64,000 nt of DNA from Apostichopus japonicus (lineage: Eukaryota > Echinodermata > Holothuroidea > Aspidochirotida > Stichopodidae), in contig NC_092567.1 of assembly GCF_037975245.1 (NCBI RefSeq), forward strand, positions 20,678,376 through 20,742,375, in the 5' to 3' direction. The notes under the pieces were generated by a model that saw nothing but the letters and a program-made list of their open reading frames with translations, was not told where the DNA came from and did no database searches. This document shows positions 1-20,480 of this stretch, in pieces. The position numbers and the translations under genes are program-made. How positions within the stretch are numbered: position 1 is the first letter of the stretch; every line of letters starts with the position of its first letter.

Positions 1-240
1 CTTTTCGTTAAACTCAACACCCTCAATATTTACGACATCAACAGTCATCAAACTGCAATTGTTATGTTCCCTATTTTGTAATAGGGCTCTGCCTAAGTGT
101 TTCAACCTCCTTTTTCCAATCCGGCGTTATTCCGCACACTACCACAACACTAGATTCAGCAACTCTCTCAGCATCATCCTGTCAAATCGTGTGAATTGAG
201 TGACCGTTTCATTCAATTGCTAGGCTCTTTTGTTATTTAA

Positions 241-601
241 AGGGTGTTAAAAGACTCGCGCACAAAGGAACGTCTCATGCCGGTAATCTGACCTAGTTTC
301 GAATGAGGTGTAACAGAAGTGTTAGACACCACCATCGATCCCAGAAAATACATACACAGCTTGCTACCGTCGGTAATTAGACACTAGTGTACAGTCAATA
401 TACATGCAGCGTCGGTCAATACCCACAACACAGTGTGCATAGCAGCGATGGACATCTCAGGTCCAGCTAAAACATAACAAGGTATCACGTTTCATTACTG
501 TCTGCATTTTGTAGCAACAAGAGAAAACCTACACTTGCAAGCAACGGAAAGTTAACTTTTTCAGAGCGCGACACGAAGATTGGGGAGAGTCTTCAATGCC
601 T
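241..601. mobile_element. TTAA-flanked MITE, copy 1 (Kolobok- or piggyBac-like)
   Basis: This short non-coding element is flanked by TTAA at 237-240 and 602-605. Its ends form an imperfect inverted repeat: the left end reads AGGGTGTTAAAAGACTC and the reverse complement of the right end reads AGGCATTGAAGACTC. Two more copies with the same ends and interior lie at 8533-8887 (inverted) and 13507-13861. TTAA targets are typical of Kolobok and piggyBac transposons; the family is inferred from target and termini only. No transposase is encoded. Confidence 0.7.
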
Positions 602-605
602 TTAA

Positions 606-1593
606 GTATTCCCAACGTTCCTGTCTTTTATCCCGTCTTTTGTTATCCTTCTAATTCACCGAGTCTGGTTTCTTAGAGATGTGGGCGTATGGTGGGGTGC
701 CGGCGGGTGAGGTGGGTGGGTGGGTCTACTTTGCTTCATTAGCTTGTCAGTTCTTACCTCACACTATTCTCTTTTTCTTGCTCTCCAGTTGACTTCTATT
801 CCAACAAGTCATTCTTTGTTAAACTTTGTTAATATATTCTCCTTCAACAACTATATTGTCACTGTTTATATGTCCGGCTATACTCCGTTTGTAAATTAAA
901 TGCCTATCTCATATTAATTTCTGTTAACATTGGTGTTCTCAATATATGAGGTTTTAACCTCGTTGTATAAAATGCTTGGTTATTATGATTGACTGATTCA
1001 TTGATCGATTGAAATCAAATTGAATGACTATAAATTGAATTGATTACATAGTACGCGTACAAATTCGATTGATCGATTAAGTTTGGGATACAGTTACAGA
1101 CATTTGTTATTACAACCTGTATAATGTAATCATCTTTGGCGATTCCTTCATTGAGAGTTATGTATTTCTTATAGTGTGACAGTCTGTTCAGTCTGTTTAC
1201 TTGTGCTGATTACAAGACTAATTTGCATATATCATCGCGAGTATAAAGTTATATCTGATGTAGCTCATAAAATACCAGGTGGCCTAGGTGCGGTTAGACT
1301 GCAGTTCAACACACTTTCTGATGTGGAAGTGTGCCAAGATCTTTCGCACTTATTTTTTTTTTCTTCTAAATTTATTTCAATTTGGCAGATTTTCCCTCAC
1401 ACTCATTCGTGTCAATAGCTGATGTTGGTATATATCATATCCAGGCTTAAAAGAAATCTATATCTGTATATTCATGAACATTGTCAATTACTGTAGACAA
1501 CAGTATACAGGCAAAGTTACTTCTACAAAATGGCCATCGAAGGTTTCAACAGAAACAAACATACACTATAGAGCGAACTAACTACACACAAGG
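606..1593. other. No recognisable feature
   Basis: This is AT-rich unique-looking sequence with short open frames only. I see no splice-bounded exon, repeat end or RNA gene in it. Confidence 0.4.
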
Positions 1594-1604
1594 ATGACAC
1601 AAGA

Positions 1605-1705
1605 CCCCTTCCCCACCCCACCCCCACCCCCACCCCCCACCCCTCCCCTCCCCTCCCACTCCACTCCCCTCCCACTCCCACTCCCCCTCCCCCTGCCCCA
1701 CCCAT
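1605..1705. repeat. C-rich polypyrimidine minisatellite
   Basis: The plus strand is a run of CCCCACC, CCCCT and CCACTCC variants with almost no purine apart from A. The minus strand therefore carries many closely spaced G-runs and could form a G-quadruplex. Open frames across it (Pro-rich on plus, Gly-rich on minus) are products of the composition. Confidence 0.75.
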
Positions 1706-1789
1706 CCCTTCTGGACCTACATATCACCTTTGATATACTTGCTTTACCAAACTCTACAGTTTCATTTAACACAAGTTACAGAACAATTG

Positions 1790-2440
1790 TATGGAAGCTT
1801 GAAAGTGCCATCAACATAAGAAAAAGTTTGCCACATAAGTTGACATTTTTCAGTAAATTGTTAATATAACAAGATAATATGTTATCAAAAAACAGAAAAA
1901 AAAATGGATTGCTCAGTTGCTTTAACTGAGCAATTGAACAACCTTCTGCAAAATGTTTAATTGTTCACTTCATTTCCATCTCAGCAATTGAACAATTTTC
2001 TGCCAAATGTTTAATTGACAACTTATCGTATCTCGTCAATTCAACATTTTTCTACGATTAGTTGTCAATTTATAGTATTTTGCAGAAAAATTCTGAATGG
2101 ACGAGATGTGATAAGTTGTCAATTGAACATTTTGTAGAAAAATGTTGAATTGACGACATGTTATAAGTGGTAAATTGAACATTTTGCAGAAAATTGTTGG
2201 AATGAAGTGAACAATTGAACATTTTTCAGAAAAATATTAAATTGACGAGATCTTATAAGTTGTCAAATAAACATTTTGCAGAAAAATTTTCAATTGCTCA
2301 GTTAAAGCAATTCAGCTATCTAGCATTTTTTTATATTTTTGATAAGATATTATTTTGTTATCTAAATAATTTACTTAAAAATGTTGACTTATTGGGGCAA
2401 AGTTTTCTTATGTTGATGGCACTTTTAAGTTTCCGTACGA
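1790..2440. repeat. Fold-back (palindromic) repeat with internal sub-repeats
   Basis: The two halves are inverted copies of each other. The left arm, with GAAAGTGCCATCAACATAAG near 1800, returns inverted near 2410-2430, and GCTCAGTTGCTTTAACTGAG near 1913 returns as an inverted copy near 2296-2312. Between them, a block containing CAATTGAACATTTTGCAGAA recurs several times in both orientations with about 60-70 bp spacing. This is the layout of a fold-back transposon or a decayed long inverted repeat. I found no coding sequence and no clear target-site duplication. Confidence 0.65.
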
Positions 2441-2737
2441 GCGGCCTTGTCCTATACAACACACGAGAGCCCGATTTGGGTGAGAATTCTCCATGTGGAT
2501 CCGACATTGATGTTTGTATATTTTTTGTTGCTGAATCCTGTCCGTGGATATCTGCCCGGGAAAGTGAAGATAACGGAACCCCTGGTAATATTGAACTTGG
2601 ACGAGGGGCTGAACGTTGCCAGGTACATGTTTATAACAGAAGATTGTTACTATTCTCAGGACGTTTAGGTGCTGACGTAGGGTTGGGCAGCAGTCATAGC
2701 ATCATCATCGCATACAACAAACCATATAACCAAATAT

Positions 2738-3036
2738 TATTATTATAATAATCATAATCATAATAATTATCATAATAATAACTATTATCATAATAATAAT
2801 CATAATCACAATAATAATCATAATCACAAAAATCGTAATCATAATAATCGTAATAATCATAATAATAATAATAATAATATAATCATAATCATAATAATCA
2901 TAATAATTATCATAATAATAAAAATCATAATTATAATAATCATAGTAATCATAATAATCATCATAATAATAATCATAATCATAATTATAATAATCATAAT
3001 AATAATCATAATAATCATAAAAATCATAATCATACA
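2738..3036. repeat. (AAT)/(CAT) trinucleotide tract
   Basis: Almost pure interspersed AAT and CAT triplets run for about 300 bp. The Ile/Met-rich and Tyr/Asp-rich open frames on the minus strand result from the triplet repeat and are not genes. Confidence 0.9.
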
Positions 3037-3175
3037 TGCTGTCAACTTATACGAAGACTATGATCCAATTGTCGACATATACTTGTACAATTTCAGCAAT
3101 AACATGTTTTTTTGACGCCATGTACTTGCATATCAAATTATATTAAGGACATGTGAATATGTATATGTATATGTA

Positions 3176-3476
3176 TAAGGGGTGTCCCCCTCCCCTTTGG
3201 AATTTTTTGCATTTCCAGGTGGCCTCAGATGCAATTTGGTGCAATATAGCACACTTCAACACTCACTCCATTTTGTAAACTTAATTTTGTATTTTCACCT
3301 GGCCTTAGATGCAATTTGGTGCTCCAAATGAGATTTTTTTTCTCATTTGGAAATGAAAAAGGGGTTTTCTGACTTGCGAAGCGGGGGGGGGGCGGAATGA
3401 TACTTCCGCCCCTCCACATTTTTCACTGGGGGGGGGGGGCTGGCGCCCCCCCAGCCCCCCGGTTCCTACGCCCTTG
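3176..3476. mobile_element. MITE fragment with G/C-rich termini
   Basis: The right edge reads, as its reverse complement, CAAGGGCGTAGGAACC followed by G-runs; the left edge is AAGGGGTGTCCCCC. Inside, a phrase containing GGCCT(C/T)AGATGCAATTTGGTG occurs twice (about 3220 and 3301). Short G/C-run ends of this kind are common in animal hAT-like MITEs. No target duplication could be fixed, so the limits are approximate. Confidence 0.4.
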
Positions 3477-3479
3477 TTC

Positions 3480-4288
3480 ATAGGTCTACTTCAGTAGTAC
3501 AGCTAAATATCATTGAGAAAGTGACAAACATCTGGAGGGAGAAAATTCATCTGAATTTTACAGAAGACTACATCGGTTTGTTTACTTGTTGTTTATGTAA
3601 ACAGGTAGCCACACGTTCCTAGCGATAACACCTTTTCACAACCCGAACATGTGTTTATCTTTTTCGATTTTCACATTCTACGATGGAAGTGCAAGTCACT
3701 CAAATCTGAAAGTTATATGTCATTTTCTTAGTCAATTGCTTCTAGTGTAATGTCATTTTTTGGCTCCCTCTATGATAGGCTATTAGAATAGATATACAAT
3801 GCAGTATAGATCACATTTTCTAAGGCGCCAAGTTTATACTGAAGACGTTTGCACGGTAGACAGTATTAAGATTATAATACTCGTTACATATCACCACTAT
3901 CCGGCTGCTTAGTTATATCCTGACAATTTGATCTAGTATTCAGCTCTAACTTTGTATTATAAGAAATAAAACTCCAAGAACAGGATTCATATTTTAAAAT
4001 ATTTAGGGTTCGATCAAAACTGAAATTGAGATTTCCCTACTGGATTCGACTCACTTCATTTGCCCTATCCCAACAGTGTATACGTCCATTTATAGTAAGT
4101 TGTGAATCCTGCAAGTATCCCCAATCAATTGATTCTTTTTCATTCAGTTGGCAATTTCAATATTTATGTTATATTTTCTTCGGTATATACTCTACACTAT
4201 CAAAGATCAAATATTTAGGACACGGACGATACTGCTCTCCTGCTAGATTCTTTCAGGAAATAAATAGATCAGTCTAGGATCTCATATA
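3480..4288. other. No recognisable feature
   Basis: AT-rich sequence without splice-bounded open frames, repeats or RNA motifs that I can recognise. Confidence 0.4.
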
Positions 4289-4297
4289 CAAGGTATT

Positions 4298-4374
<77 letters not shown>
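4289..4374. repeat. (TA)n microsatellite
   Basis: About 40 uninterrupted TA units. Confidence 0.95.
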
Positions 4375-4376
<2 letters not shown>

Positions 4377-4386
4377 GCATTTTCAC

Positions 4387-4780
4387 GGTAACTCACGTTA
4401 CATTTTTGATGTTTTTAGTCTTCTTTTTGTACCATATATTTTACTAACACATGAGTTTGATCAATTACTTCTTCTACAGTATTTAACACAATGCTGAGGC
4501 ATACCTCAGCCAAAAAAAAAAAAAAAATTGCTTCTTGTAGATTTTATAAGGCAACAAGATTTGGTAACTCACGTTACATTTCTAAAAGCGCCAAAATTGG
4601 AAAACAAATATTATTCAAAAAGTGTCCTCATACTAAATGAACTCAAAGAAAAGTGAAATATGGTAGCTATACCTTACCTACTAGTAAACATATAGGTTGC
4701 CAAAAAAATCCTATATCATTGTCTAGTTGCATAAAAATGATGCAAGACTCGGTAAGTCACGTTACGGTAACTCACGTTAC
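4387..4780. repeat. Four copies of a GTAACTCACGTTAC palindromic motif
   Basis: The 15-mer GGTAACTCACGTTAC occurs at 4387-4401, 4563-4577 and 4766-4780, with a one-base variant (GGTAAGTCACGTTAC) directly abutting the last at 4751-4765. The motif is an interrupted palindrome (GTAAC, 4-base spacer, GTTAC). The DNA between copies is not obviously repeated, so it is the motif that recurs rather than a longer unit. It may be a set of protein-binding sites or sub-terminal repeats of a decayed transposon. Confidence 0.7.
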
Positions 4781-5373
4781 AATTTGTCCACACATAACAA
4801 TTCATAAAATATAAGTTGCTGACACAATTCAATCTTATTCATTCTTACGTAACAGTTTCAAGCCTTAATAAAAATACTTCTTGTATTCACTTTGTAACAC
4901 AAAGTAACTGTTATAAACTTATTTACAGTTTCAAATACTGTAGGAATCACTACAGTGCTCCATATCATTTAACATTAAAGCCAATGAACACTGGCGGAAA
5001 TGGCCATACAATTGACATCAATGATAAAGATTGTGTGACATTGTTGCAAGTGGTGAGGTTCAAGAGGCCCTGTGATAGTATAGTGTAATATTTCATGGAT
5101 GTATCTATATGGTTATGGGTTACTATGAGAATGGGGTCTTTCACTGTCTAACAGCGTTAGCAGCCCCTGTTTTCATATATATATATACATCTATATACAT
5201 ATATATATATATTTCGAGAACCGGCTTAAGTTGGTTAGCGTCATGTTTGATCTCTAGAGTAAGGCAAAATTTGTCACAAAAAACAGAACTAGTATTGTTC
5301 GATACAGGTGACAAACACCTACAGTGAAATTACGACCTTCCTTAACGGTTTCGAACCTCTGGACATACCATCA

Positions 5374-5444
5374 GCGTCCATAGCCTACTGGTTAGGGTGT
5401 CCGCGTACAGAGCGGGAGGCCCGGGTTCGAGTCCCGGTGGAGGC
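5374..5444 (+). tRNA. tRNA-like pseudogene or SINE head
   Basis: A full cloverleaf can be drawn. The acceptor stem is GCGTCCA with TGGAGGC (one mismatch), the anticodon stem is TCCGC with GCGGG, and the T arm is CCGGGTTCGAGTCCCGG. A 7-base loop GTACAGA gives anticodon ACA, which nuclear tRNA sets normally lack, so a functional tRNA is unlikely. A tRNA-derived SINE head with intact pol III A and B boxes fits better. It sits just before a (TA)n tract and element A. Confidence 0.55.
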
Positions 5445-5488
5445 TGGAAGTTTTTTCACTGTTTTTGATTTTCCAACTCATTGCGATA

Positions 5489-5490
<2 letters not shown>

Positions 5491-5519
<29 letters not shown>
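5491..5519. repeat. (TA)n tract at the left edge of element A
   Basis: TA units abut the left terminus of element A; a matching (TA)n tract at 16189-16224 abuts its right terminus. This suggests A inserted into a TA microsatellite. Confidence 0.85.
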
Positions 5520-5522
<3 letters not shown>

Positions 5523-6070
5523 GTGCGTATCCAGGGGGGGGGGCGTTGGGGGCGCGCGCCCCCCGGGTAAGAAAAAGAGGAGAGAAAAAAAAGAGAAGAA
5601 AAAAGGAAATAAGAGGGGAAAAAAGAGGAGGAGGAGAGGAAGGAAGGGAAAAGAAAAAGAAAGAGAGAAAAAGGAGAAAAGGAGGGAGTAAAAGAAAAAC
5701 GCGAAGATACCGGGAAGAGAAAGAGGAACAGTGACATCATTACAGCGCTGAAGGGTAGCCAGTGACGGATCAATGATTTCGTAAAAGTGTGACTCACCCT
5801 ACCCCTTACACCGACAACTCCATTTTTTGACGTTTCCATTTTCCTCTCTCACTAATGATCTATATATGTACTATATATGGTCTATCATAACGCGTGTGTA
5901 GAATTGTGCTATGAAACCAACTGTGGCTGGTCTCGAACTCGACCGTGTCGTCGGGGAACATGACGCATTTTGGGATGGGGGCGACCGCCCGCCCCCCCCC
6001 CCATTCAGCATTTTTTTAAATGATATCGCTAAGTAATTTCAAAATAGAAAGTGCTTAGAGGCAACTTACA

Positions 6071-6239
6071 AGGCCTGGGAAGTGTCATTTCCAGCGATCT
6101 GGGAGACCAAAATTTGCTTGTACGCTTCGCGCTAACAAATGGTCCTGGGTAGTGCCATTTCCAGCGATCTGGGAGGCATTTTCGGCCAAAATTTTCTTGT
6201 ACGCTTCGCGCCAACCTATGGTGGCGCTACGCTTAGATA
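6071..6239 (+). repeat. Two tandem copies of the ~100-bp CGCGCCAACC module
   Basis: The first copy (about 6071-6140) is truncated; the second runs 6141-6239. The module starts near GGCCTGGGAAGTG, carries TTTCCAGCGATCTGGGAGG and ends with GCGCCAACCTATGGTGGCGC and a CTTAGATA tail. The same module recurs at 6860, 16045, 21467, 22091, 22251 and, inverted, at 26664. Confidence 0.75.
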
Positions 6240-6859
6240 ATTTGCCTACAGGCTTCGCCCCTCCCTTGGCAAATTCCTCGCTACGCGCCTGTTCGAATTT
6301 GTAACGCAAACAGCAGATATCACATCATATCAATGAGCATGAAAATGGCGTTCCAGGATGAAAAGCCTCAAAACTGTCCGACTTGCCTGAAAAAATAACC
6401 AAAAATTTTCGCGTGCTTAGCGCGCGTTCAACGTGTTCATGTCAATATCATATAAGCAAGCATCGGTTATTACATCGCATGCCATCATGTACCGTACGGT
6501 CCGTTCAAATTGCGCAGTATTTCGCGGGATGCTAATGTAAACAACGACATGTCTCATGTAGATGTATAAAAAGCATGGAGGTCCAATTATGTAAAAACTC
6601 TCTTTTACATTAGTAATGGCGAATTAGGGGCTGCACCCCCGCCGCGCAGTGGCGGAGCGTCCATACGGTCGGGGGGTGGATGCCCCCCCTGACGGACTCA
6701 AATGGACTGCTGGCGCCTTTTCAGCTCTTTACCACTTTTTACTTATTCTAGATTATTAACTTTTTTATTGCGCTCTCATCTACTTATTGACATTTGTCAC
6801 ATTTTGTTGGTGTAATTTGGCGATGACACCTTATTCTTCGTTTATCTGCAAATTAGCCA

Positions 6860-6956
6860 GGCCCGGAAAGGGTCATTTCCGGCGATCTAGGGAGTATCTT
6901 TATTCAAAAATTTTCTGTACGCTACGCGCCAACCAGTGGTGGCGCTCCGCTTAGAT
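6860..6956 (+). repeat. ~100-bp module copy inside element B
   Basis: It runs from GGCCCGGAAAGGGTCATTTCC to GGCGCTCCGCTTAGATAG. Its 3' tail supplied the ATAGTGTC target used by element C. It lies near the right end of B once the C pair is removed. Confidence 0.7.
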
Positions 6957-8532
6957 AGTGTCCAGAGCCGTATATAGAGAGAGTTTGGCCAACCATGTAA
7001 CCGATTTGGATTGGTCGAGAGGGAAAACGCCCACACAGGGTGGTAAAATAGGTCCACTTGAACACTTTATAGCAGACGACACGCATACTCACAGTGTATA
7101 GACTATCGTTTTGTACACGAAAAAAGTACGAAATTATGAAAGAAATGGTGCTGGGGATGCTGCAATCGGTCAGAACATGGATATTGTTGTTCGATTATCC
7201 GACTGACCATAAAAGAAGAGGAATTTTTTGGAAGTAGAAAGAACAAGATGGAGATCTAATGAAAAAAAGTCTGTGTAGCCTAGGCCCATACTAGCCATAG
7301 GCCCTAGTGTAATACGAGTAATGTACAAGCAATGCGAGAATTTTACGTTCAGACTGGTTTCTGTAATTACATGAATGGCTATTCTCTCTCGTTTTACGAT
7401 CCACAAATTCGATTTCATTATGCCAGCTCTCCTAATCATAGGCATGGCAGTTTCAGTCGCACATATAGTTATCCTAATTCCTAGTTATTGCATGCCTAGG
7501 CTATGCCTAGCCTAAAAAAGTATCACTTTTAGTTCTATGTAAAAGGGTGGGCTAGCCTCTAGGCATCACGTAAAGCCCTAATCCTTAGTTAAGCCCGAAG
7601 CATAAGTTAAGCCTGGGCTTAGTTAGACCTGGACCATTCTTGCTATTACTACAACTGTTATAGCACATTACATAATATGGCACAGTATAAGGCCCAATTA
7701 AACTAGGTCTAAGGAAAACAAAGTAGCCTAGGCCTAAACTAGTTAGGCTAGGTCTATACTCATTGGCAACTTGTGGGTTGTGTACACATACAGGCCTAAT
7801 TATATAGACCCTTTTAGTATGTCATAAACAAGTGCCCAAATGGTTAAATGATCTTGGTTTGTGTTAATTGTCAGCATTGGCCTAGCCTTTTTAGGCTAAC
7901 ATGAATTCAGCCTAATTTTTTCTTCTTCAAAAGTATAGCCTAGGCCTTGGTTTAATTTGGATGCAGTCAACTATCATTTATCAAAGTTGCATCAGTACCT
8001 CCTTATTCCCTTAATTGACACCCACATTGACGATTGAAGTTAAAAAAAACCTTTTTAAATTATCTTTAGACAGTAAATTTTAACTCCCTGAATTTCAGGA
8101 CTTTTTTTACAAATCAAAGGTGACATGTGCTCTGAAGAAAAACTCCTAACATAAAAAGCCACAGTTAGCAGACTGTGATAATGACAAACCTGGTGAGTGA
8201 CTTCTAGACTGAAATCCAGTTCCTGCAACCACAGCAATAAAGTCTTTGTTTTAATCAATGCACTTGTGTGTTTGAAACTTTCAAATGGACACTCAATGGC
8301 AGTTGGTTAAGATATAAGGTTTTACCTTCATCATGGAGAGTCGAAGGGAATCTGCCTCATCATCTGAATAATGGACTCAAGGATAGCAACAAATCATGAT
8401 TGGATAATGATTTTGAGCAAGTAAATATCTGGCAATTTGAAAGTTTGTATTATTTTTTTACATATTATTTAAGCTGTTTAGCTCACACACAAGCAAATGA
8501 TCAAGTGACAACAACCGATGCAGTATATTTAA

Positions 8533-8887
8533 AGGTATTGAAGACTTGCCCTAAACCGCATGCCGCGCTCTGAAAAAGTTTACTTTCCGTTGCTTGCAAG
8601 TGAAGTTTTTTTTGTGTCGCTACAAAATGCAGACAGTAATGAAACCCGATACCTTGTTATCTTTTATCTAGACCTGAGATGTCCACGCTGCTATGTGCAC
8701 TGTGTTGTGGGTATTGACAGTGATGTTTGTATTGACTGTACACTAATGTCTATTTACAGATGGTAGCAAGCTGTATGTGTATTTTCTGGGATCAATGGTG
8801 GTGTCTAACACTTCTGTTACACCGCATTCGAATCTAGGTCAGATAACCGGCATGAGACGTTTCTTTGTGCGGGAGTCTCCACACCCT
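8533..8887 (-). mobile_element. TTAA-flanked MITE, copy 2, nested in element C
   Basis: Flanked by TTAA at 8529-8532 and 8888-8891, with ends AGGTATTGAAGACTTGCC and GGAGTCTCCACACCCT. It is the inverted counterpart of 13507-13861, present at the matching place in both C copies, so it inserted before the C copies separated. Confidence 0.75.
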
Positions 8888-9128
8888 TTAAGGAGAAGTA
8901 TTTATATCCCATTAATAGAGAAAGAATTATGTTTCAATTGGTAGCATGCAACTTAAAATTTTGCAAACATTAGATACAATCAAACAATAACAAGGTTCAT
9001 TTACAAGGTAATCTACTGCCCTTTATTTCACATTAGTCTGTCACATCAGAAGGTCACAGCTTTCAATAATTATACAAACAAATTCCCTTGATGGGTGCTT
9101 CGTTAGTTTCCTGCAATTTTCAAGTTTA

Positions 9129-9389
9129 TCAATGTAATAAGTTCTGAATGTGGCAATGTGGAGAAGCTTTGGGATAATCTGTGGATAAGACTGCCAGACT
9201 ATCAACAAGATTCCACATCCATGCAACTCCAACTGCTTCCTTCACCTCCTTGCAGATGTACCACATGTCCAAAAAAAAGTCAGCATTGGTTAATGTAATT
9301 AAAAGCTGGCTTCCTCCTGAGCTGGCAAATACACATGAATTGTCAAGTACAGAGGTCAGTGTGAAACCACTGAGAGATCTTCTCAGCTT
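9129..9389 (-). pseudogene. Conserved 86-codon frame in element C (left copy)
   Basis: This minus-strand frame mirrors 13005-13265 and keeps the same reading frame, including ADFFLDMWYICKEVKEAVG. I do not recognise the family; it may be a transposase remnant. See the right-copy entry for the description. Confidence 0.35.
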
Positions 9390-10967
9390 TCAAGAAAACA
9401 AAGACTTGAAGCCAAATTGACAGAGGCCACACTGATACCATTCCACTCTCATAAGATGAAGGTATCACACACACTTCATTTTGCTTCTGCGATGCAGTGC
9501 CTGGTAGACTGTGAGGGTCACCCAATGGATGTTTTAACAACTGCCTGGTTTATAGAGCTCTACAACAGATAATTCATCCTAATGTCTAGTCGTTATCCTG
9601 TCATGGCCTTGAGCAAGTTGAACCCACTTCAACACAAAGCAGCTATTGAATTCTTGTCTAGGTACTGTCAAATCCACATCACCATCATTGCTGGTTCCAG
9701 CTTCGCTGACCATGATAAAAGAGTACAATGAGGGTTTTTTACTTCACCCAACAGAGCTTGCATTCCAGTACCATTGGGCAGCTGAAAAGATATTCAGAAA
9801 TTGTTATATATGAGTGTGTTTGTATGCATGCATATGCGTGATTTTCTTGCTTTACAGAACAGCTCCATTTTGATAAGCTACGTAACGTGTAAACCTGCCA
9901 ATCATATGTTTGAAATAGGACACGCTGAAACGATTCTTAAATGAAAAGCTTAACGACTTCATGCATTTTTATACATCACTGTTCAGGTAAGGCCAGTAAG
10001 GGCAGTATGAAGAATAAGTAACAATTAATAATTATCATTATGGCCATTTGCTGTCTGCATAAAAACAAACTGAATGATGTCATCAGCCCTATGCTCAGTT
10101 GACAACACTGACAAGTAGGCACACTATGTCAGTGTGATCCATGAAACCTCATTAAGGACATGACCGTATAGTATATATGTTAATGGAAAATACATAAGCT
10201 ACAACATACACCAGTATTCAGTTGTTGCAGGTTTTTTTTTTCTCGACAGACCCATTCAATCTGTTGCACCTACTATAGCCTAGTACTACATTCCTGAGAA
10301 ATTAACACCACAATATCAGTCTTAGGTTTGCCCACAGACTCCCAACTATTGCTAACTCCTACACTCAAGTATATAGTTTAGTTTAGTAGAAAAAATGACC
10401 AGGAGAGACATTCAAGTCCCCATTAAGGACCCTAAGGCTATATGAGAGGAATAAAACCGAGGACATCAAATGTCATACCCAATTACAATGCTTAATGTAC
10501 TCATCCAAAGTATTCTTAAACCCATACACACTACTTGCAATTCAACCTTCTCAGGCAAACCATTCAATCCATCCAGTATAAGTTGTATTAGACTTTAGAG
10601 AAAAAGTTATGCCGAATATTAATCCTACTATGTAGCTTCTGGAGTTTAATACAATGACCTCTGGTACAACTACTTTTTGGCAAACCTGAAAGATCAGTGA
10701 AGCATAAATTGTCATTTTATGTGTAGGCCTACTTTATTTAATTGAAGGATCTATTAATGTAGGCCTGATGCTATAGTTTTGCGTCTGTAATCTAGCCTAG
10801 CCAGGACTGTGATGTGTGCTTTTCGTTTGTATGACTAAAGTAGGACTAGTAGTATGAGGCGTAAAATAAAACAAGTGTAATGACAGGTTTTCAGCTACTT
10901 TTCTATGCATTTCAGGTGTGAAGATAAACGTAAATGTTATTAACTAACGCATACTCTAATTCATTAC

Positions 10968-11011
10968 CTGATATCCATTTTGTTCCTCGTATGCCTGTCA
11001 AAATCTGACAT
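10968..11011 (-). CDS. Possible first coding exon in element C (left copy)
   Basis: Mirror of 11376-11419. An ATG at 11011 opens the peptide MSDFDRHTRNKMDIR and runs into a GTAATG splice-donor-like site. Function unknown. Confidence 0.3.
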
Positions 11012-11375
11012 TCTGAGTCGCTTCGTTTGTTCGCAACGAGCACAGTGTGCAAAGCTGCTATATATTGTGTGTGGTGTTTTTCGTGTTTCGCGCAACTGGT
11101 AACGACAACTGGACCTATTTTGATGCCCATGGTTTGCGTGTGACGTCACAAATCGCCAGTTGGCCAAACTCTCTCTATATACGGCTCTGATAGTGTCCAG
11201 AGCCGTATATAGAGAGAGTTTGGCCAACTGGCGATTTGTGACGTCACACGCAAACCATGGGCATCAAAATAGGTCCAGTTGTCGTTACCAGTTGCGCGAA
11301 ACACGAAAAACACCACACACATTATATAGCAGCTTTGCACACTGTGCTCGTTGCGAACAAACGAAGCGACTCAGA

Positions 11376-11419
11376 ATGTCAGATTTTGACAGGCATACGA
11401 GGAACAAAATGGATATCAG
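11376..11419 (+). CDS. Possible first coding exon in element C (right copy)
   Basis: ATG at 11376 encodes MSDFDRHTRNKMDIR and stops at CAG/GTAATG, a good splice donor. It lies about 180 bp inside the terminal repeat, where the first exon of a transposon-encoded gene could sit. Both C copies keep it intact. No downstream partner exon can be joined with certainty; 13005-13265 is a candidate. Function unknown. Confidence 0.3.
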
Positions 11420-13004
11420 GTAATGAATTAGAGTATGCGTTAGTTAATGACATTTACGTTTATCTTCACACCTGAAATGCATAGAAAACTAGCTGAAAAC
11501 CTGTCATTACACTTGTTTTATTTTACGCCTCATACTACTAGTCCTACTTTAGTCATACAAACGAAAAGCACACATCACAGTCCTGGCTAGGCTAGATTAC
11601 AGACGCACAACTATAGCATCAGGCCTACATTAATAGATCCTTCAATTAAATAAAGTAGGCCTACACATAAAATGACAATTTATGCTTCACTGATCTTTTC
11701 AGGTTTGCCAAAAAGTAGTTGTACCAGAGGTCATTGTATTAAACTCCAGAAGTTACATAGTAGGATTAATATTCGGCATAACTTTTTCTCTAAAGTCTAA
11801 TACAACTTATACAAGGGTTGTGAATGGATGGAATGGTTTGCCTGAGAAGGTTGAATTGCAAGTAGTGTGAATGGGTTTAAGAATACTTTGGATGAGTACA
11901 TTAAGCATTGTAATTGGGTATGACATTTGATGTCCTCGGTTTTATTCCTCTCATATAGCCTTAGGGTCCTTAATGGGGACTTGAATGTCTCTCCTGGTCT
12001 TTTTTTCTACTAAACTAAACTATATACTTGAGTGTAGGAGTTAGCAATAGTTGGGAGACTGTGGGCAAACCTAAGACTGATATTGTGGTGTTAATTTCTC
12101 AGGAATGTAGTACTAGGCTATAGTAGGTGCAACAGATTGAATGGGTCTGTCGAGAAAAAAAAACCTGCAACAACTGAATACTGGTGTATGTTGTAGCTTA
12201 TGTATTTTCCATTAACATATATACTATACTGTCATGTCCTTAATAAGGTTTCATGGATCACACTGACATAGTGTGCCTACTTGTCAGTGTTGTCAACTGA
12301 GCACAGGGCTGATGACATCATTCAGTTTGTTATTATGCAGACAGCAAATGGCCATAATGATAATTATTAATTGTTACTTATTCTTCATACTGCCCTTACT
12401 GGCCTTACCTGAACAGTGATGTATAAAAATGCAAGAAGTCGTTAAGCTTTTCATTTAAGAATCGTTTCAGCCTGTCCTATTTCAAACATATGATTGGCAG
12501 GTTTCCACGTTACATAGCTTATCAAAATGGAGCTGTTCTGTAAAGCAAGAAAATCACACATATGCATGCATACAAACACACTCATATATAACAATTTCTG
12601 AATATCTTTTCAGCTGCCCAAAGGTACTGGAATGCAAGCTCTGTTGGGTGAATTAAAAAACCCTCATTGTACTCTTTTATCATGGTCAGCGTAGCTGGAA
12701 CCAGCAATGATGGTGATGTGGATTTGACAGTACCTAGACAAGAATTCAATAGCTGCTTTGTGTTGAAGTGGGTTCAACTTGCTCAAGGCCATGACAGGAT
12801 GACGACTAGACATTAGGATGAATTATCTGTTGCAGAGCTCTATAAACCAGGCAGTTGTTAAAACATCCATTGGGTGACCCTCACAGTCTACCAGGCACTG
12901 CATCGCAGAAGCAAAATAAATTTGTGTGATACCTTCATCTTATGAGAGTGGAATGGTATCAGTGTGGCCTCTGTCAATTTGGCTTCAAGTCTTTGTTTTC
13001 TTGA

Positions 13005-13265
13005 AAGCTGAGAAGATCTTTCAGTGGTTTCACACTGACCTCTGTACTTGACAATTCATGTGTATTTGCCAGCTCAGGAGGAAGCCAGATTTTAATTACA
13101 TTAACCAATGCTGACTTTTTTTTGGACATGTGGTACATCTGCAAGGAGGTGAAGGAAGCAGTTGGAGTTGCATGGATGTGGAATCTTGTTGATAGTCTGG
13201 CAGTCTTATCCACAGATTATCCCAAAGCTTCTCCACATTGCCACATTCAGAACTTATTACATTGA
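13005..13265 (+). pseudogene. Conserved 86-codon frame in element C (right copy)
   Basis: An uninterrupted frame runs from codon AAG at 13005 to TGA at 13263, with the first ATG at 13128. It encodes the segment ADFFLDMWYICKEVKEAVG followed by a Trp-containing stretch and a His/Cys pair near its end. The left C copy keeps the same frame with few changes. Lack of an early ATG suggests an internal exon or a decayed piece of a transposase. I cannot name the family. Confidence 0.35.
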
Positions 13266-13506
13266 TAAACTTGAAAATTGCAGGAATCTAACAAAGCACC
13301 CATCAAGGGAATTTGTTTGTATAATTATTGAAAACTGTGACCTTCTGATGTGACAGACTAATGTGAAATAAAGGGCAGTAGATTACCTTGTAAATGAACC
13401 TTGTTATTGTTTGATTGTATCTAATGTTTGCAAAATTTTAAGTTGCATGCTACCAATTGAAACATAAATCTTTCTCTATTAATGGGATATAAATACTTCT
13501 CCTTAA

Positions 13507-13861
13507 AGGGTGTGGAGACTCCCGCACAAAGAAACGTCTCATGCCGGTTATCTGACCTAGTTTCGAATGCGGTGTAACAGAAGTGTTAGACACCACCATT
13601 GATCCCAGAAAATACACATACAGCTTGCTACCATCTGTAAATAGACATTAGTGTACAGTCAATACAAACATCACAGTCAATACCCACAACACAGTGCACA
13701 TAGCAGCGTGGACATCTCAGGTCTAGATATAAGATAACAAGGTATCAGGTTTCATTACTGTCTGCATTTTGTAGCGACACAAAAAAAACTTCACTTGCAA
13801 GCAACGGAAAGTAAACTTTTTCAGAGCGCGGCATGCGGTTTAGGGCAAGTCTTCAATACCT
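13507..13861 (+). mobile_element. TTAA-flanked MITE, copy 3, nested in element C
   Basis: Flanked by TTAA at 13503-13506 and 13862-13865. Same family and orientation as 241-601; the interior matches closely, including the GGTGTAACAGAAGTGTTAGA phrase. Confidence 0.75.
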
Positions 13862-16044
13862 TTAAATATACTACATCGGTTGTTGTCACTTGATCATTTG
13901 CTTGTGTGTGAGCTAAACAGCTTAAATAATATGTAAAAAAATAATACAAACTTTCAAATTGCCAGATATTTACTTGCTCAAAATCATTATCCAATCATGA
14001 TTTGTTGCTATCCTTGAGTCCATTATTCAGATGATGAGGCAGATTCCCTTCAACTCTCCATGATGAAGGTAAAACCTTATATCTTAACCAACTGCCATTG
14101 AGTGTCCATTTGAAAGTTTCAAACACACAAGTGCATTGATTAAAACAAAGACTTTATTGCTGTGGTTGCAGGAACTGGATTTCAGTCTAGTAGTCACTCA
14201 CCAGGTTTGTCATTATCACAGTCTGCTAACTGTGGCTTTTTTTGTTAGGAGTTTTTCTTCAGAGCACATGTCACCTTTGATTTGTAAAAAAAAGTCCTGA
14301 AATTCAGGGAGTTAAAATTTACTGTCTAAAGATAATTTAAAAAGATTTTTTTTAACTTCAATCGTCAATGTGGGTGTCAATTAAGGGATAAGGAGGTACT
14401 GATGCAACTTTGATAAATGATAGTTGACTGCATCCAAATTAAACCAAGGCCTAGGCTATACTTTTGAAGAAGAAAAAATTAGGCTGAATTCATGTTAGCC
14501 TAAAAAGGCTAGGCCAATGCTGACAATTAACACAAACCAAGATCATTTAACCATTTGGGCACTTGTTTATGGCATACTAAAAGGGTCTATATAATTAGGC
14601 CTGTATGTGTACACAACCCACAAGTTGCCAATGAGTATAGACCTAGCCTAACTAGTTTAGGCCTAGGCTACTTTGTTTTCCTTAGACCTAGTTTAATTGG
14701 GCCTTATACTGTGTTATATTATGTAATGTGCTATAACAGTTGTAGTAATAGCAAGAATGGTCCAGGTCTAACTAAGCCCAGGCTTAACTTATGCTTCGGG
14801 CTTAACTAAGGATTAGGGCTTTACGTGATGCCTAGAGGCTAGCCCACCCTTTAACATTAAACTAAAAGTGATACTTTTTTAGGCTAGGCATAGCCTAGGC
14901 ATACAATAACTAGGAATTAGGATAACTATATGTGCGACTGAAACTGCCATGCCTATGATTAGGAGAGCTGGCATAATGAAATCGAATTTGTGGATCGTAA
15001 AACGAGAGAGAATAGCCATGCATGTAATTACAGAAACCAGTCTGAACGTAAAATTCTCGCATTGCTTGTACATTACTCGTATTACACTAGGGCCTATGGC
15101 TAGTATGGGCCTAGGCTACACAGACTTTTTTTTCATTAGATCTCCATCTTGTTCTTTCTACTTCCAAAAATTCCTCTTCTTTTATGGTCAGTCGGATAAT
15201 CAAACAACAATATCCATGTTCTGACCGATTGCAGCATCCCCAGCACCATTTCTTTCATAATTTCGTACTTTTTTCGTGTACACAAACGATAGTCTATACA
15301 CTGTGAGTATGCGTGTCGTCTGCTATAAAGTTTTCAAGTGGACCTATTTTACCACCCTGTGTGGGCGTTTTCCCTCTCGACCAATCCAAATCGGTTACAT
15401 GGTTGGCCAAACTCTCTCTATATACGGCTCTGATAGTGTCGAAAGCGCTCCTACAGACCATTCTCGCCACTCCTGACCAATACCCCTAGCTCCGCCACTG
15501 CCGCCGCGCCTCCTACGCCTGTGTGTAGTGTTCGGTTGAAGGAAATATCTGCTATTTTTTCATTTTCTTCAACCAAGTTTTATAATAGCCGTTATAAGAG
15601 GTTTTAATGTTTGTACACCAATATATGAACTGTGTCTGAATTTTCGAAAATTTCTGACCAACATTCTGCATCACACTTCCCTCTACTCGTGCAATTTTGA
15701 CCGGTCTGTTAGGGGTTCAAGGAAGTTTTTCTATATTGGTTGTCCATAGATGAAATTTTGTACAACATTTAGGGTATGTTTTCAAGTGAGTTTATTCACG
15801 AGAAATGTGAATTTTCAAATTCTGAACAAATATGGGGCTTAAAACCTTGAAAAGTGGGGCTGACGGGTATTGTGGGCCGCGACGTAGAATCACCTACAAA
15901 AGCAAAGACCCACAGGAGATGCCATCAGGTCGAACATGATGTGTGCCGGGTTGACAAACTTCAAAAAGGTTATGGATGGAAAAAAAAAACTATTAGGAAA
16001 TACCTGGTTCTCAGGCAAAAAGTGTACATCTGGTTGGTCATTTC

Positions 16045-16188: not shown

Positions 16189-16224
<36 letters not shown>
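16189..16224. repeat. (TA)n at the right edge of element A
   Basis: TA units directly follow the CGCGCCTG terminus of element A. Confidence 0.9.
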
Positions 16225-16226
<2 letters not shown>

Positions 16227-16429
16227 AATAACGGAAAAACTGTTAAACAACTATGCTGCATTTAGAGAAAGGCTGGATCTCGAGTGAGATACAATAATCC
16301 GAATTTCTAAAACTTCTGCTCAATTCAGCAGAAATCAGTAAGTCGCTTTGCCTTTACAACCATGCCGACATCTTCTCTATAAAACAGTTTCAATTCCTGC
16401 TACTCCTTGTCACTTTCGGTGATGGTGAT

Positions 16430-16475
16430 CATGCACTGAAGAAGAGCTAGTTTTGCTCGAAAGCTCTGCAAAAAC
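16430..16475 (+). ncRNA. Hammerhead-ribozyme-like core, possibly from a Penelope-type element
   Basis: CTGAAGA (16436-16442) matches the hammerhead CUGANGA core. It is followed by a 4-bp stem GAGC/GCTC (16444-16447 with 16455-16458) closed by a 7-base loop, then GAAA (16459-16462). These are the conserved segments around stem II in the expected order. Stems I and III and a cleavage triplet are not evident, so it is probably a degenerate copy. Terminal repeats of Penelope-like retroelements are a known source of such motifs. A (TA)n tract follows at 16511. Confidence 0.25.
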
Positions 16476-16507
16476 CAAACATTGGCTGTTTTACTTCCAA
16501 TCACTTA

Positions 16508-16510
<3 letters not shown>

Positions 16511-16588
<78 letters not shown>
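16511..16588. repeat. (TA)n microsatellite
   Basis: About 39 TA units, uninterrupted. Confidence 0.95.
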
Positions 16589-16590
<2 letters not shown>

Positions 16591-18778
16591 AGAACAGTGA
16601 AAAAACTTTCAGCCTCATATGAATGACGATTGAGTATAGATATTTCCCACAGTTTGTTATACCAAATTTAAATGGAGAAGAAATTGCCATTTCTTCTGCG
16701 TAATCGCTTTCATCATTGAAATAACTCATGTTTTCGAGTTCATGGGAGGTAGGTTTGTGTTTTCAATTGACGGTGTAAATTCGATGTTAATTTCAACGAG
16801 ATATCTCCAATGCAAATAGCGAGTCCTCATGGAAATGGAAAAATATTCGACAATCTTAACAACAATTCAGTCAGAAAATTGGTCATGTTTAAAATATCAA
16901 ATGGGCATGACCTCGTACTTTCTAAACTTGACGTCATCAAACAGAATACATTTCAGCAGACCTGGCGCTTCAGAGAGGTTTCGTACGATGACATAAGTAA
17001 ACCACACACACAATGTGGTGATTGGTAGTAGTCTCATGAATATTTATAACCGTTTTCCAATCAGATCAGATCATCGGTTGTGCATAGTTTCGCCTAGGAT
17101 CTGATATGCTTCCCATCATGAAAGCAGTTTGATCATAACTAAACTGCGCATGCCCAGCAGTTCTACTCAAATAACCCGCCGTCAATCCATTCGAACATTA
17201 TCTAGCGGCAGTATATAGAATCACGCATATAAGCCACTTCTCGCCAATAGGGTGGCATACTCCTATTAGAGTCTATATCAATCCGCTCGATTGTTCTCCA
17301 TCAGGAAAAGTGCCAAAAAAGCAGCAGGAGAACATCTTTTGTGAGCTGTTATCAATCATAATCTAGTTTTTTTTGTGGCTTGCATGTTGAAGAGCATGAA
17401 TGGAAGTACATGTGGTGAGACAATTGGGTCAATTGAGGCAATTTTAGACCCCCGTTAGGCCTCCCAGGAGCAGCGTAGGAAATTTGTTTACCACTGAGTG
17501 AAAAGGTTTGTTTACAAGTGACGAAAACTTCCGGCTCGGATAGCAAAAAATCTACACGGTCATGATATGGAAAATTGATAATGCCATGAAAGGCCAATTT
17601 GTCAGCTATCCGGTGATGGGTAGCGTTTAGCTAGTGAAAACTTTTATCTAGACTTAGAGACCACATTACTTTTGTGATTTAGTGTGTAAGTCAATGGGGC
17701 TTTTAATGGGCGTATGCTACCATAGGTCGTAGGCCTGCTACTTTTTTTTTAAGTACAGGTCAAAGGTTAACATTTCTTAGATGTCTGTGTATGTCGATTC
17801 GCCCTCTATTTGGGAATGACAACTCTTAGTCAATAGTTTTGGGCTCGAAATTAAATCGTCCCGAGAAATAGATATTTTTTCGTTGAAGCCCCGAGTAACC
17901 CAATCATAACTTTTACATGTGCATTTTCAGCTAAATATTACATAATTTGCAGAATTTCAAGAACAATGTAGCTAATATTTCGATGGCGATATTTCCTTAA
18001 GAATATCGATAACATAATTTACGAACGTTTTCGACACATTTGAAGGACTAATTGTTAAAATTATCGAAATTCGATTTTCCGAAAAGGTCCAGTTGCCCCA
18101 ACGGAAAAAGTCCAGGCTGTTCCAATGAGCATTTAGTGAACCTAATGTTATAAATTAACACTGATGTTGACTTTTGGCCTTCCATGCTTTATGTTGCTAA
18201 ATTTCTCGGCTTTCGAACGTCTTCATGAAAATAGTTATCTCTAATAATTTGATTCAGCATAGTAGTTAATTAATTCGTTATTCGAATGAAAATTGAAATT
18301 TGCTAAGAAAACGCTGCATTCGACGAGATTTCGAGACATTTTGAATTCTACGGAGGCCAATACAAACCGTTGTTCCTCTCTATAGAACAACTGCGGTAAA
18401 ATAATAGTGTATACGCATCGTTTTTATTATTATACTTTAGTGCAGATTACAGAAAGATTCAAATCTAAGTACCACGCAAACGCTGCCGACTTGGAAAAGA
18501 TATATTTGCCCGTACAAAGTGGGTAGGGTGATTGGGTGTATGGCGGGGGGGGGGGGGTAAATCGGACGAATACCCCCACTTCACAACGCCCAACAAACAT
18601 ATAACAAATAGAGAAAGATAAAACTAGACTAGCTGCAAATGACACAAAACTCAGTCTACCTGGATTGGAATTTATTAGCAACGAACTTACCTTCTGCGTC
18701 CATGGAGATATGAATCCTGACGTAACAAGCATCTGGTAATAGGACAACCTGACATCATATATTATATTAAAGTTTATT
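16589..18778. other. Non-coding stretch with one dispersed repeat
   Basis: Apart from the repeat at 17423-17697 and a G-run at 18544-18557, I see no exon or RNA gene. A 129-codon minus-strand frame (18430-18819) has no recognisable domain, contains a proline run made by the poly-C tract, and runs into the satellite. Confidence 0.4.
17423..17697 (-). repeat. Dispersed repeat, copy 1
   Basis: Its reverse complement resembles 58149-58377. Shared blocks include GTGGTCTCTAAGTC, CACTAGCTAAAC, CATCAC(C/T)GGATAGCTGA and ACGCTGCTCCTGGG(A/G)AGGC. No termini or target duplication could be placed. Confidence 0.6.
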
Positions 18779-20480
18779 TCTACGAAGTTTAAGCCTTTCA
18801 AAACATCGATTCGCCGCACTTAAAAAACGCTTTTCTCAAGACAAAAGTGGCATTCTACGAAGTTTAAGCCTTTTAAATTGATATGAAATGATATCAATAT
18901 ATAATATAAAAATGTTATATATCCATAAAAATCGAATGACTTAAGTACTCTTTTTAGCTCAAATCTAATCAAAAGGGCTCCATCGATCGTATGTATGATT
19001 TTGGGAAGAATTAAAAAAGTCGTCATTTTAGCCCAAAAGTAACAATATCATAAGGAATTGTCCATTTTGAGCTAAAAAAGAATGTTTTTGAAATAATGTC
19101 AGGATGTAGACCACGGATTCCCAGCACTCAGAAAACGCTACTTTCAAGACTAAAGTGGCATTCTACGAAGTTTAAGCCTTTGAAATTGATAGCAATATAT
19201 AATATGAAAATATTATATTTTCATAAAAATCGAGTGAATTTAGTACTATTTACATCTCGAATCTAATCAAAAGGGCGCCATCGATCGTATCTATGATTTT
19301 GGGAATGATTAAAATAGTCGTCATTTTGGCCAAAATTTCACAAAATCATAAGAGGATAGCCTTACAAAATTGTCCATTTTGGGCCAAAAATGAATGTTTT
19401 CAAAATAATGTCAGGATGTAGACCACGGATTCCCAGCACTCAGAAGACGCTACTCTCGAGACAAAAGTGGCATTCTACGAAGTTTAAGCCTTTTAAAATT
19501 GATATGAAATGATAACAATATATAATATGAAAATGTTATATTTTCATAAAAATCGAATGACTTAAGTACTATTTACATCTCGAATCTAATCAAAAGGGCG
19601 CCATCGATCGCATGTATGATTTTGGGAAGAATTAAAAAAGTCGTCATTTTGGCCAAAAATTAACAAAATCATAAGGGTATAGCCTTACAAAATTGTCCAT
19701 TTTGGGCCCAAAATGAATGTTTTCAAAATAATGTCAGGATGTAGACCACGGATTCCCAGCACTCAGAAAACGCTACTCTCGAGACAAAAGTGGCATTCTA
19801 CGAAGTTTAAGCCTTTTAAAATTGATATGAAATGATAACAATATATAATATGAAAATGTTATATTTTCATAAAAATCGAATGACTTAAGTACTATTTACA
19901 TCTCGAATCTAATCAAAAGGGCGCCATCGATCGTATCTATGATTTTGGGAAGGATTAAAAAAGTCGTCATTTTGGCCAAAATTTCACAAAATCATAAGAG
20001 TATAGCCTTACAAAATTGTCCATTTTGGGCCAAAAATGAATGTTTTCAAAATAATGTCAGGATGTAGACCACGGATTCCCAGCACTCAGAAGACGCTACT
20101 CTCGAGACAAAAGTGGCATTCTACGAAGTTTAAGCCTTTTAAAATTGATATGAAATGATAACAATATATAATATGAAAATGTTATATTTTCATAAAAATC
20201 GAATGACTTAAGTACTATTTACATCTCGAATCTAATCAAAAGGGCGCCATCGATCGCATGTATGATTTTGGGAAGAATTAAAAAAGTCTTCATTTTGGCC
20301 AAAAATTAACAAAATCATAAGGGTATTGCCTTACAAAATTGTCCATTTTGGGCCAAAAATGAATGTTTTCAAAATAATTTCAGAATGTAGACCACGGATT
20401 CCCAGCACTCAGGAAACGCTACTCTCAAGACAAAAGTGGCATTCTTCGAAGTTTAAGCCTTTCAAATTGATATGAAATGA
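18779..20480. repeat. Satellite of ~308-324 bp units, left part
   Basis: The marker CATTCTACGAAGTTTAAGCC begins at 18851, 19159, 19471, 19794, 20117 and (one change) 20440, giving spacings of 308, 312, 323, 323 and 323. Units include GTAGACCACGGATTCCCAGC and GGGCGCCATCGATCG. The leftmost copies are shorter and more diverged. The array continues at 22428. Confidence 0.9.

Follow-up and report, generated by a model that had tools for sequence, protein, structure and literature searches.

The 64,000-nt stretch of the Apostichopus japonicus genome analysed here (the window; contig NC_092567.1, positions 20,678,376 to 20,742,375) carries a palindrome made of two transposable elements, which we read, at a probability of about 0.88, as two P-superfamily transposons that arrived independently, by cut-and-paste, in the same 8 bp. 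A sequence-only reading of this DNA had described two head-to-head 4.2-kb arms with three copies of one 8-mer, and this description is borne out by exact coordinates and by alignment of the arms. The corresponding product, in which target site duplications (TSDs) and elements alternate as TSD-element-TSD-element-TSD, was found across the genome in all three pairings of element ends and also between two families. Three things go beyond the sequence-only reading: the elements belong to a P-type family, a dispersed repeat serves as their target, and excision footprints record earlier occupants.

Two complete elements around three copies of one 8-mer

The two elements are complete and lie in opposite orientation, with ATAGTGTC outside on the left, between them, and outside on the right. 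The window has no further copy of the 8-mer and none of its reverse complement. An identical 31-bp terminal inverted repeat (TIR), beginning CAGAGCCGTATATAG and hence with CA, stands at both ends of the elements. The two end types differ inside the TIR, which is followed by CATGTAACC at L ends and by TGGCGATTT at R ends; in the window pair the L ends face outward and the R ends inward, giving an R-to-R junction. The features of the locus are as follows.

6803..6954, forward strand: dispersed target repeat, left part, ending in ...CGCTCCGCTTAG before the target 8-mer (by-eye comparison with L013, another copy of the repeat)
6955..6962, forward strand: 8-bp target duplication, outer left copy of ATAGTGTC (exact match)
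6963..11189, forward strand: P-type element arm A, L end outward, 4227 bp (arm alignment, TIR comparison)
6963..6993, forward strand: 31-bp TIR, arm A L end (TIR comparison)
9144..9798, forward strand: decayed P-type transposase coding stretch, arm A (match to L132; arm coordinates 2182-2745 and 2693-2836)
11159..11189, reverse strand: 31-bp TIR, arm A R end (TIR comparison)
11190..11197, forward strand: 8-bp target duplication, central copy of ATAGTGTC (exact match)
11198..15432, reverse strand: P-type element arm B, R end inward, 4235 bp (arm alignment, TIR comparison)
11198..11228, forward strand: 31-bp TIR, arm B R end (TIR comparison)
12597..13250, reverse strand: decayed P-type transposase coding stretch, arm B (arm B coordinates 2183-2745 and 2693-2836)
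15402..15432, reverse strand: 31-bp TIR, arm B L end (TIR comparison)
15433..15440, forward strand: 8-bp target duplication, outer right copy of ATAGTGTC (exact match)
15441..15510, forward strand: dispersed target repeat, right part, beginning GAAAGCGCTCC (by-eye comparison)

The sequence-only reading had proposed aligning the arms and counting their differences. Pairwise alignment of arm A with inverted arm B gave 4172 matching columns, 51 substitutions (23 transitions and 28 transversions) and nine indel events scattered over the whole arm length, with both arms ending at the 31-bp TIRs. The window holds a single TIR-8bp-TIR match; among 100 shuffled controls, three contained a match at up to two mismatches.

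Junctions of this kind recur across the genome

Searching the 672-Mb assembly (35 contigs) at up to two mismatches returned 73 facing TIR-8bp-TIR junctions, against none for a backward-pattern control. We read 59 junctions, comprising 50 of the 73 that were listed, five from a search at three mismatches, and four further ones in the same stretches. Far from occurring in single copies only, a possibility that the sequence-only reading had raised against itself, the window family is paired with itself at 22 of these 59 junctions. Their orientations (8 RR, 5 LL and 9 direct) are compatible with chance (chi-square p = 0.46). Two of the nine direct junctions, C16:17529467 and C16:17708711, share the same spacer and the same right flank and, by that resemblance, are probably one duplicated locus.

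A second family, with the TIR CAGAGCCTTATATAGAGAGAGTTGCGACAAC, is joined to the window family at four of the 59 junctions, and one further junction unites two second-family copies; these lie at L067, L069, L072, L078 and L079, the last being the junction between the two second-family copies. At 27 junctions at least one side is a footprint, and in the remaining five the end on at least one side is degraded or unclassified.

How common such pairs are was gauged from the element ends. A 446-bp probe from the L end gave 46 best matches, 45 of them full-length, and 11 of these 45 abut another TIR across 8 bp. Similarly, an abutting TIR was seen at 31 of the first 100 of 182 C-class ends, although one of the 31 (L007) is a chance CTCTG and the C class, which contains the junctions by construction, is enriched for them. 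As a separate observation, two doubles 80 kb apart, C16:689558 and C16:769564, carry the same 8-mer in opposite orientation (AATGTAAG and CTTACATT), possibly through an inversion or a duplicated target.

Partner arms are not sisters

Local self-transposition has been proposed for some Drosophila double P insertions. Applied to the window, this would make the second arm a copy of the first, the element having departed from one sister chromatid and entered the duplication on its counterpart. Such an event gives the same alternation of TSDs and elements, and P elements do hop locally (PMC7776569). It predicts close partners, and we therefore compared the arms of doubles with each other and with other copies of the family. 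In the L-end alignment, arm A differs by 0.41% from two single copies (L002 and L003, on C4 and C12) and by 1.22% from arm B; in the R-end alignment it differs by 0.95% from an arm of another double and by 1.42% from arm B. A copy other than the partner was closer at 17 of 18 arm ends, the remaining one being a tie, and partner distance was no smaller than under random pairing (permutation p = 0.83, 8 pairs). The test comprises nine comparisons from these eight pairs, with the window used at both ends; a ninth pair, L015, was compared but set aside, since the stretch includes just a fragment of its right arm. On these comparisons the second element did not arise from the first, and the arms are not sisters. 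Together with the four junctions that join different families, these distances make self-transposition an unlikely account of the window, though it is the strongest of the competitors to two independent insertions.

The arms are decayed P-superfamily elements

Direct Pfam and PDB searches with the decayed coding sequence of the window arms found no transposase, so that the kinship of the arms became apparent only via relatives in the same genome. A genome search with the P-type RNase H domain PF21787 yielded 45 matches, and ten of these loci were fetched and set against the arms. Strong matches to the arms came from three of them, namely L132 and the near-identical L133 and L134. L132 (on C21) has an open frame of 789 amino acids with matches to PF21787 (TNP-like RNaseH_N; E = 1.1e-33) and PF21788 (GBD; E = 9.4e-13), and it matches the Drosophila P transposase structure 6p5a at E = 6.2e-38. 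Arm A in turn is 53% identical to L132 over 202 columns (E = 1.4e-52), with in-frame stops in arm A. Note that the ten loci compared contain no TIR of the window type, and that the L132 open frame has no THAP match at E 0.01, a possible separate first exon lying outside the search.

Judged by these matches, the arms are decayed P-superfamily elements, and they would have been moved by transposase supplied elsewhere. What places them in the superfamily is a transposase (via L132) homologous to that of P, whose RNase H domain carries a GTP-binding insertion, together with an 8-bp target duplication and a 31-bp TIR that begins with CA. The superfamily is further marked by GTP-dependent transposition, a biochemical trait. 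The TIR of the Drosophila P element likewise begins with CA. That element also has a 31-bp TIR and an 8-bp TSD (PMC7776569), and the TIR of zebrafish Pdre2 begins with CA as well (PMC10983969).

Excision footprints record former occupants

Further evidence for cut-and-paste movement of the P type comes from 30 short remnants of the form CAGAGC...GCTCTG, each set between 8-mers that agree within two bases. The scan admitted remnants of up to 46 bp. In all 30, between 6 and 18 nt of the 31-bp TIR are kept per side and never more; in the six footprints with 18 nt, the 18th base is assignable to either end. The loci were chosen for about 13 nt of TIR beside a junction, and the common length of 13 to 14 nt is thus partly a matter of selection, whereas the upper limit was not set by this choice. 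Not all footprints are independent: a single tandem repeat (L027) contributes two of the 30 as its units, and L046 and L068 are near-identical loci. Excision by hAT elements keeps the flanking TSD and little or no TIR, unlike these 30 footprints with their 6 to 18 nt of TIR per side, to which the selection for about 13 nt applies. P transposase cuts with a 17-nt stagger (PMC7776569), and the upper limit of the footprints is as P-type excision predicts, which is indirectly consistent with a 17-nt stagger at the donor site.

Several loci show more than one former occupant. At L013 (C3:5296100), another copy of the window target repeat, the order is ATAGTGTC-footprint-ATAGTGTC-footprint-ATAGTGTC, which marks the locus, by its sequence, as a former double from which both elements have been excised. 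At L080 (C5:9342009), positions 163-296, five copies of ACCAGGAT are separated by four different footprints that come from both families, and at C11:19585341 an element is followed by two footprints. L027 (C9:28231400-28231900) has at 236-501 a tandem repeat with a period of 111 bp; both units seen beyond the element contain a footprint.

A literature search on footprints with repeated insertion, judged by titles, had no title on P-type footprint arrays among those listed; on sources of this scope we cannot say that footprint arrays or the reuse of one TSD by mixed families are unreported, and we make no such claim.

The target site and a model for double insertion

The window site lies inside a dispersed repeat, with CGCTTAG before the target and GAAAGCGC after it, and CTTAG|ATAGTNNN sites have been struck repeatedly by the window family: among the first 100 of the 182 C-class ends, the target is ATAGTNNN at 30 of 61 sites. 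A dispersed hotspot alone does not account for the doubles: in the same sample, enriched for junctions by construction, CTCTG abuts 9 of the 30 ATAGTNNN sites and 9 of the 31 other sites (one abutment, L007, being chance). The P superfamily is known for a palindromic target motif; unique A-class flanks here show a weak R T .. A Y pattern in the TSD and a T at -10 in 30 of 56.

On the reading of two independent insertions, a P-type transposase with a long stagger would cut each element from its donor site, and the excised element would be joined to the target with an 8-bp stagger, duplicating ATAGTGTC. The other arm, a different family member, lies precisely at one of the two 8-bp duplications. 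With insertion orientation random, the palindrome would be one of several outcomes and call for no special reaction. With the 8-mer and one native flank preserved, the duplication would still be a good target once the first element is in place, and we suggest that the terminal CTG or CAG of the neighbouring TIR may supply the T at -10 or the A at +2 that many targets show. Of the two routes that the sequence-only reading had put forward, a second insertion into the first target duplication is the one that we retain, and a replication- or hairpin-based duplication is rejected on grounds given below.

Central and outer 8-mers

The sequence-only reading had also asked whether the central 8 bp always equal the outer 8 bp. 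Both outer 8-mers were visible in 14 same-family arrays, namely 13 doubles (9 inverted, 4 direct) and a triple on C11. In 11 of the 14, all copies of the 8-mer are equal and point the same way (the window, C2:24174617, C2:30236360, C7:11645811, C7:25507226, C9:28227396, C12:26060577, C8:34600677, C5:20568383, C23:5530115 and C7:1555903), so that the answer is yes for most arrays and no for three, two of them with a flipped centre and one with an unrelated 8-mer on one side. In five further same-family arrays with one outer copy visible (C14:10606726, C16:689558, C16:769564, C16:17529467 and C16:17708711), the outer copy equals the centre in every case; at C4:22137053 the stretches fetched showed no outer copy. 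L024 (C14:10602000-10611999) holds three elements in direct repeat, with CTATTTAC at three positions; in the stretches read, the third element's far end was not found.

The three exceptions head a set of observations that weigh against two simple insertions as the whole story. In two of the 14 arrays, C3:9800732 (RR; L014, L032 and L033) and C3:3649407 (LL; L012, L104 and L105), the two outer copies are alike, and the centre reads as their reverse complement. Both flips occur in inverted pairs, as would be expected had the middle been turned by crossing-over between the arms or when an excised pair was joined back in. C3:3649407 in addition has 18 nt of TIR between the right element and its outer 8-mer, which would fit re-joining to a P-type donor break. 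In the C11 triple (C11:19668056/19671510), the left outer copy and both centres are TTCAGCAC, and the third element has TTCAGCAC at its R end and an unrelated 8-mer, ATAGTTTC, at its L end (L136, C11:19671450-19678400, positions 74-6709). This element spans 6.6 kb from R end to L end without a second TIR between, and ATAGTTTC is an 8-mer belonging to the dispersed target repeat; exchange between elements at two sites would explain flanks taken from different targets. Simple insertion produces neither the flipped centres nor the C11 mismatch, and later rearrangement is needed for both.

Other points on the same side concern scope and strength. Of the 73 junctions, 23 fell outside the listing, and the five found at three mismatches may or may not be among these 23. 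The share of copies that stand in doubles is only roughly known, the end counts covering two, A and C, of the four classes A, C, G and T. The partner test draws on eight of the 22 same-family junctions, with 0.7 kb per arm compared at L ends and 1.5 kb at R ends, and gene conversion among copies could blur it. Finally, the target preference is weak, and taken alone it is too weak to explain so many doubles.

The same arrays bear on the idea that the palindrome is a single mobile, foldback-like unit that arrived whole. Two loci lend it some colour: L124, a composite that has an L end on either side and a single outer TSD pair, and C3:3649407, where the flipped centre and the TIR remnant give the impression that an entire double was excised and put back. 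Such a unit predicts outer 8-mers that agree around an unrelated centre, and this pattern was seen in none of the 14 arrays (11 with equal copies, two with a reverse complement, and C11 unrelated on one side only), which leaves it very improbable for the window. L124 itself (C12:3095558-3102474) has arm positions 1-3633 fused to inverted 3297-1; from this arrangement it is probably an R-to-R double that lost its centre, and it has the shape of a foldback element.

More improbable still is a mirrored copy made by replication slippage, a hairpin or fold-back during transposition, an idea invited by the inverted window pair with only 8 bp between its arms. The window arms are separated by 51 substitutions, and neither is the other's nearest relative; nine of the 22 same-family junctions are direct, the C14 triple with CTATTTAC being an example; and four junctions are of mixed family. 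Non-sister arms, chance orientation and junctions that are direct or mixed thus exclude mirror duplication as a general cause. That long inverted repeats are hard to assemble would favour an assembly artefact, which we consider negligible: arms that differ throughout, and recurrence at many loci with different 8-mers, orientations, partners and footprints, uphold the argument that the sequence-only reading had made against a missed adapter.

Relation to known double insertions and foldback elements

Two complete elements at one target are not new in themselves. The singed-weak allele of Drosophila melanogaster reportedly carries P elements facing each other at a single 8-bp site, which is present three times; it is a single laboratory allele with short deleted elements, whereas the arrangement described here occurs at many loci and the window arms are 4 kb long. 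Tandem dimers are also known from hobo, a hAT element and in this respect unlike the P-type elements studied here. As for the doubles described here, insertion of two elements at one target has been considered for hobo, as one of three proposed mechanisms (PMC7214746).

Among the nearest counterparts of the window pair are the double P insertions of D. melanogaster, in which two P-superfamily elements share one target site with an 8-bp TSD (PMC8909793, PMC7214746, PMC7776569). Tandem P elements arising by double insertion at one site have been described (PMC8909793 and PMC7214746, citing McGurk and Barbash 2018), and the statement in the sequence-only reading that the structure would define an unusual transposition product was accordingly too strong. 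The sea cucumber loci differ in their unrelated partners, in the mixing of two families, and in series of at least four footprints, features that the Drosophila cases may share. What is already known is thus the double P-type insertion; the variant features are serial reuse by two families and the rearrangements that follow.

Two other P-type systems invite comparison. Galileo, also of the P superfamily, has long inverted arms (the TIRs of copy 112 measure 4246 and 4680 bp) and a palindromic target motif, but it is a single element, with long TIRs and TSDs mostly of 7 bp, whereas here complete elements with 31-bp TIRs are separated by a TSD (PMC4168063). Zebrafish Pdre2/THAP9 resembles the window family in being P-type, with a TIR beginning CA and an 8-bp TSD, and differs in its 13-bp TIR and in that doubles do not feature in the descriptions available (PMC10983969).

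The interest of the sea cucumber genome lies in two-family serial reuse, footprint arrays, flipped centres and one centre-deleted composite. It offers a natural record in which intact doubles, direct triples, excised doubles, flipped centres and the centre-deleted composite stand side by side. A broader scheme, which we offer tentatively and hold to be possible rather than probable, is that a TSD beside a P-type TIR, be it of a resident element or a footprint, is a preferred target and a lasting landing site for both families. Repeated cycles would then give arrays such as L080; doubles would flip or lose their centres and become foldback-like composites with multi-kilobase inverted arms, as at L124; and footprint units could join tandem arrays such as L027, with its 111-bp period. 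L027 brings to mind a published suggestion that tandem arrays start from double insertions (PMC7214746). Two ideas become testable in this way, namely that a TIR-adjacent duplication is a favoured target and that foldback elements such as Galileo start as double insertions.

Other features of the window

Elsewhere in the window, ten unrelated open reading frames searched against Pfam gave no match at E 0.01. Two tRNA matches over the Rfam threshold lie at 5374-5445 and 26153-26227, and long AT dinucleotide runs at 16189-16600 form perfect inverted repeats. A 323-bp tandem repeat occupies 19056-20480, with 4.4 copies and 94% matches.

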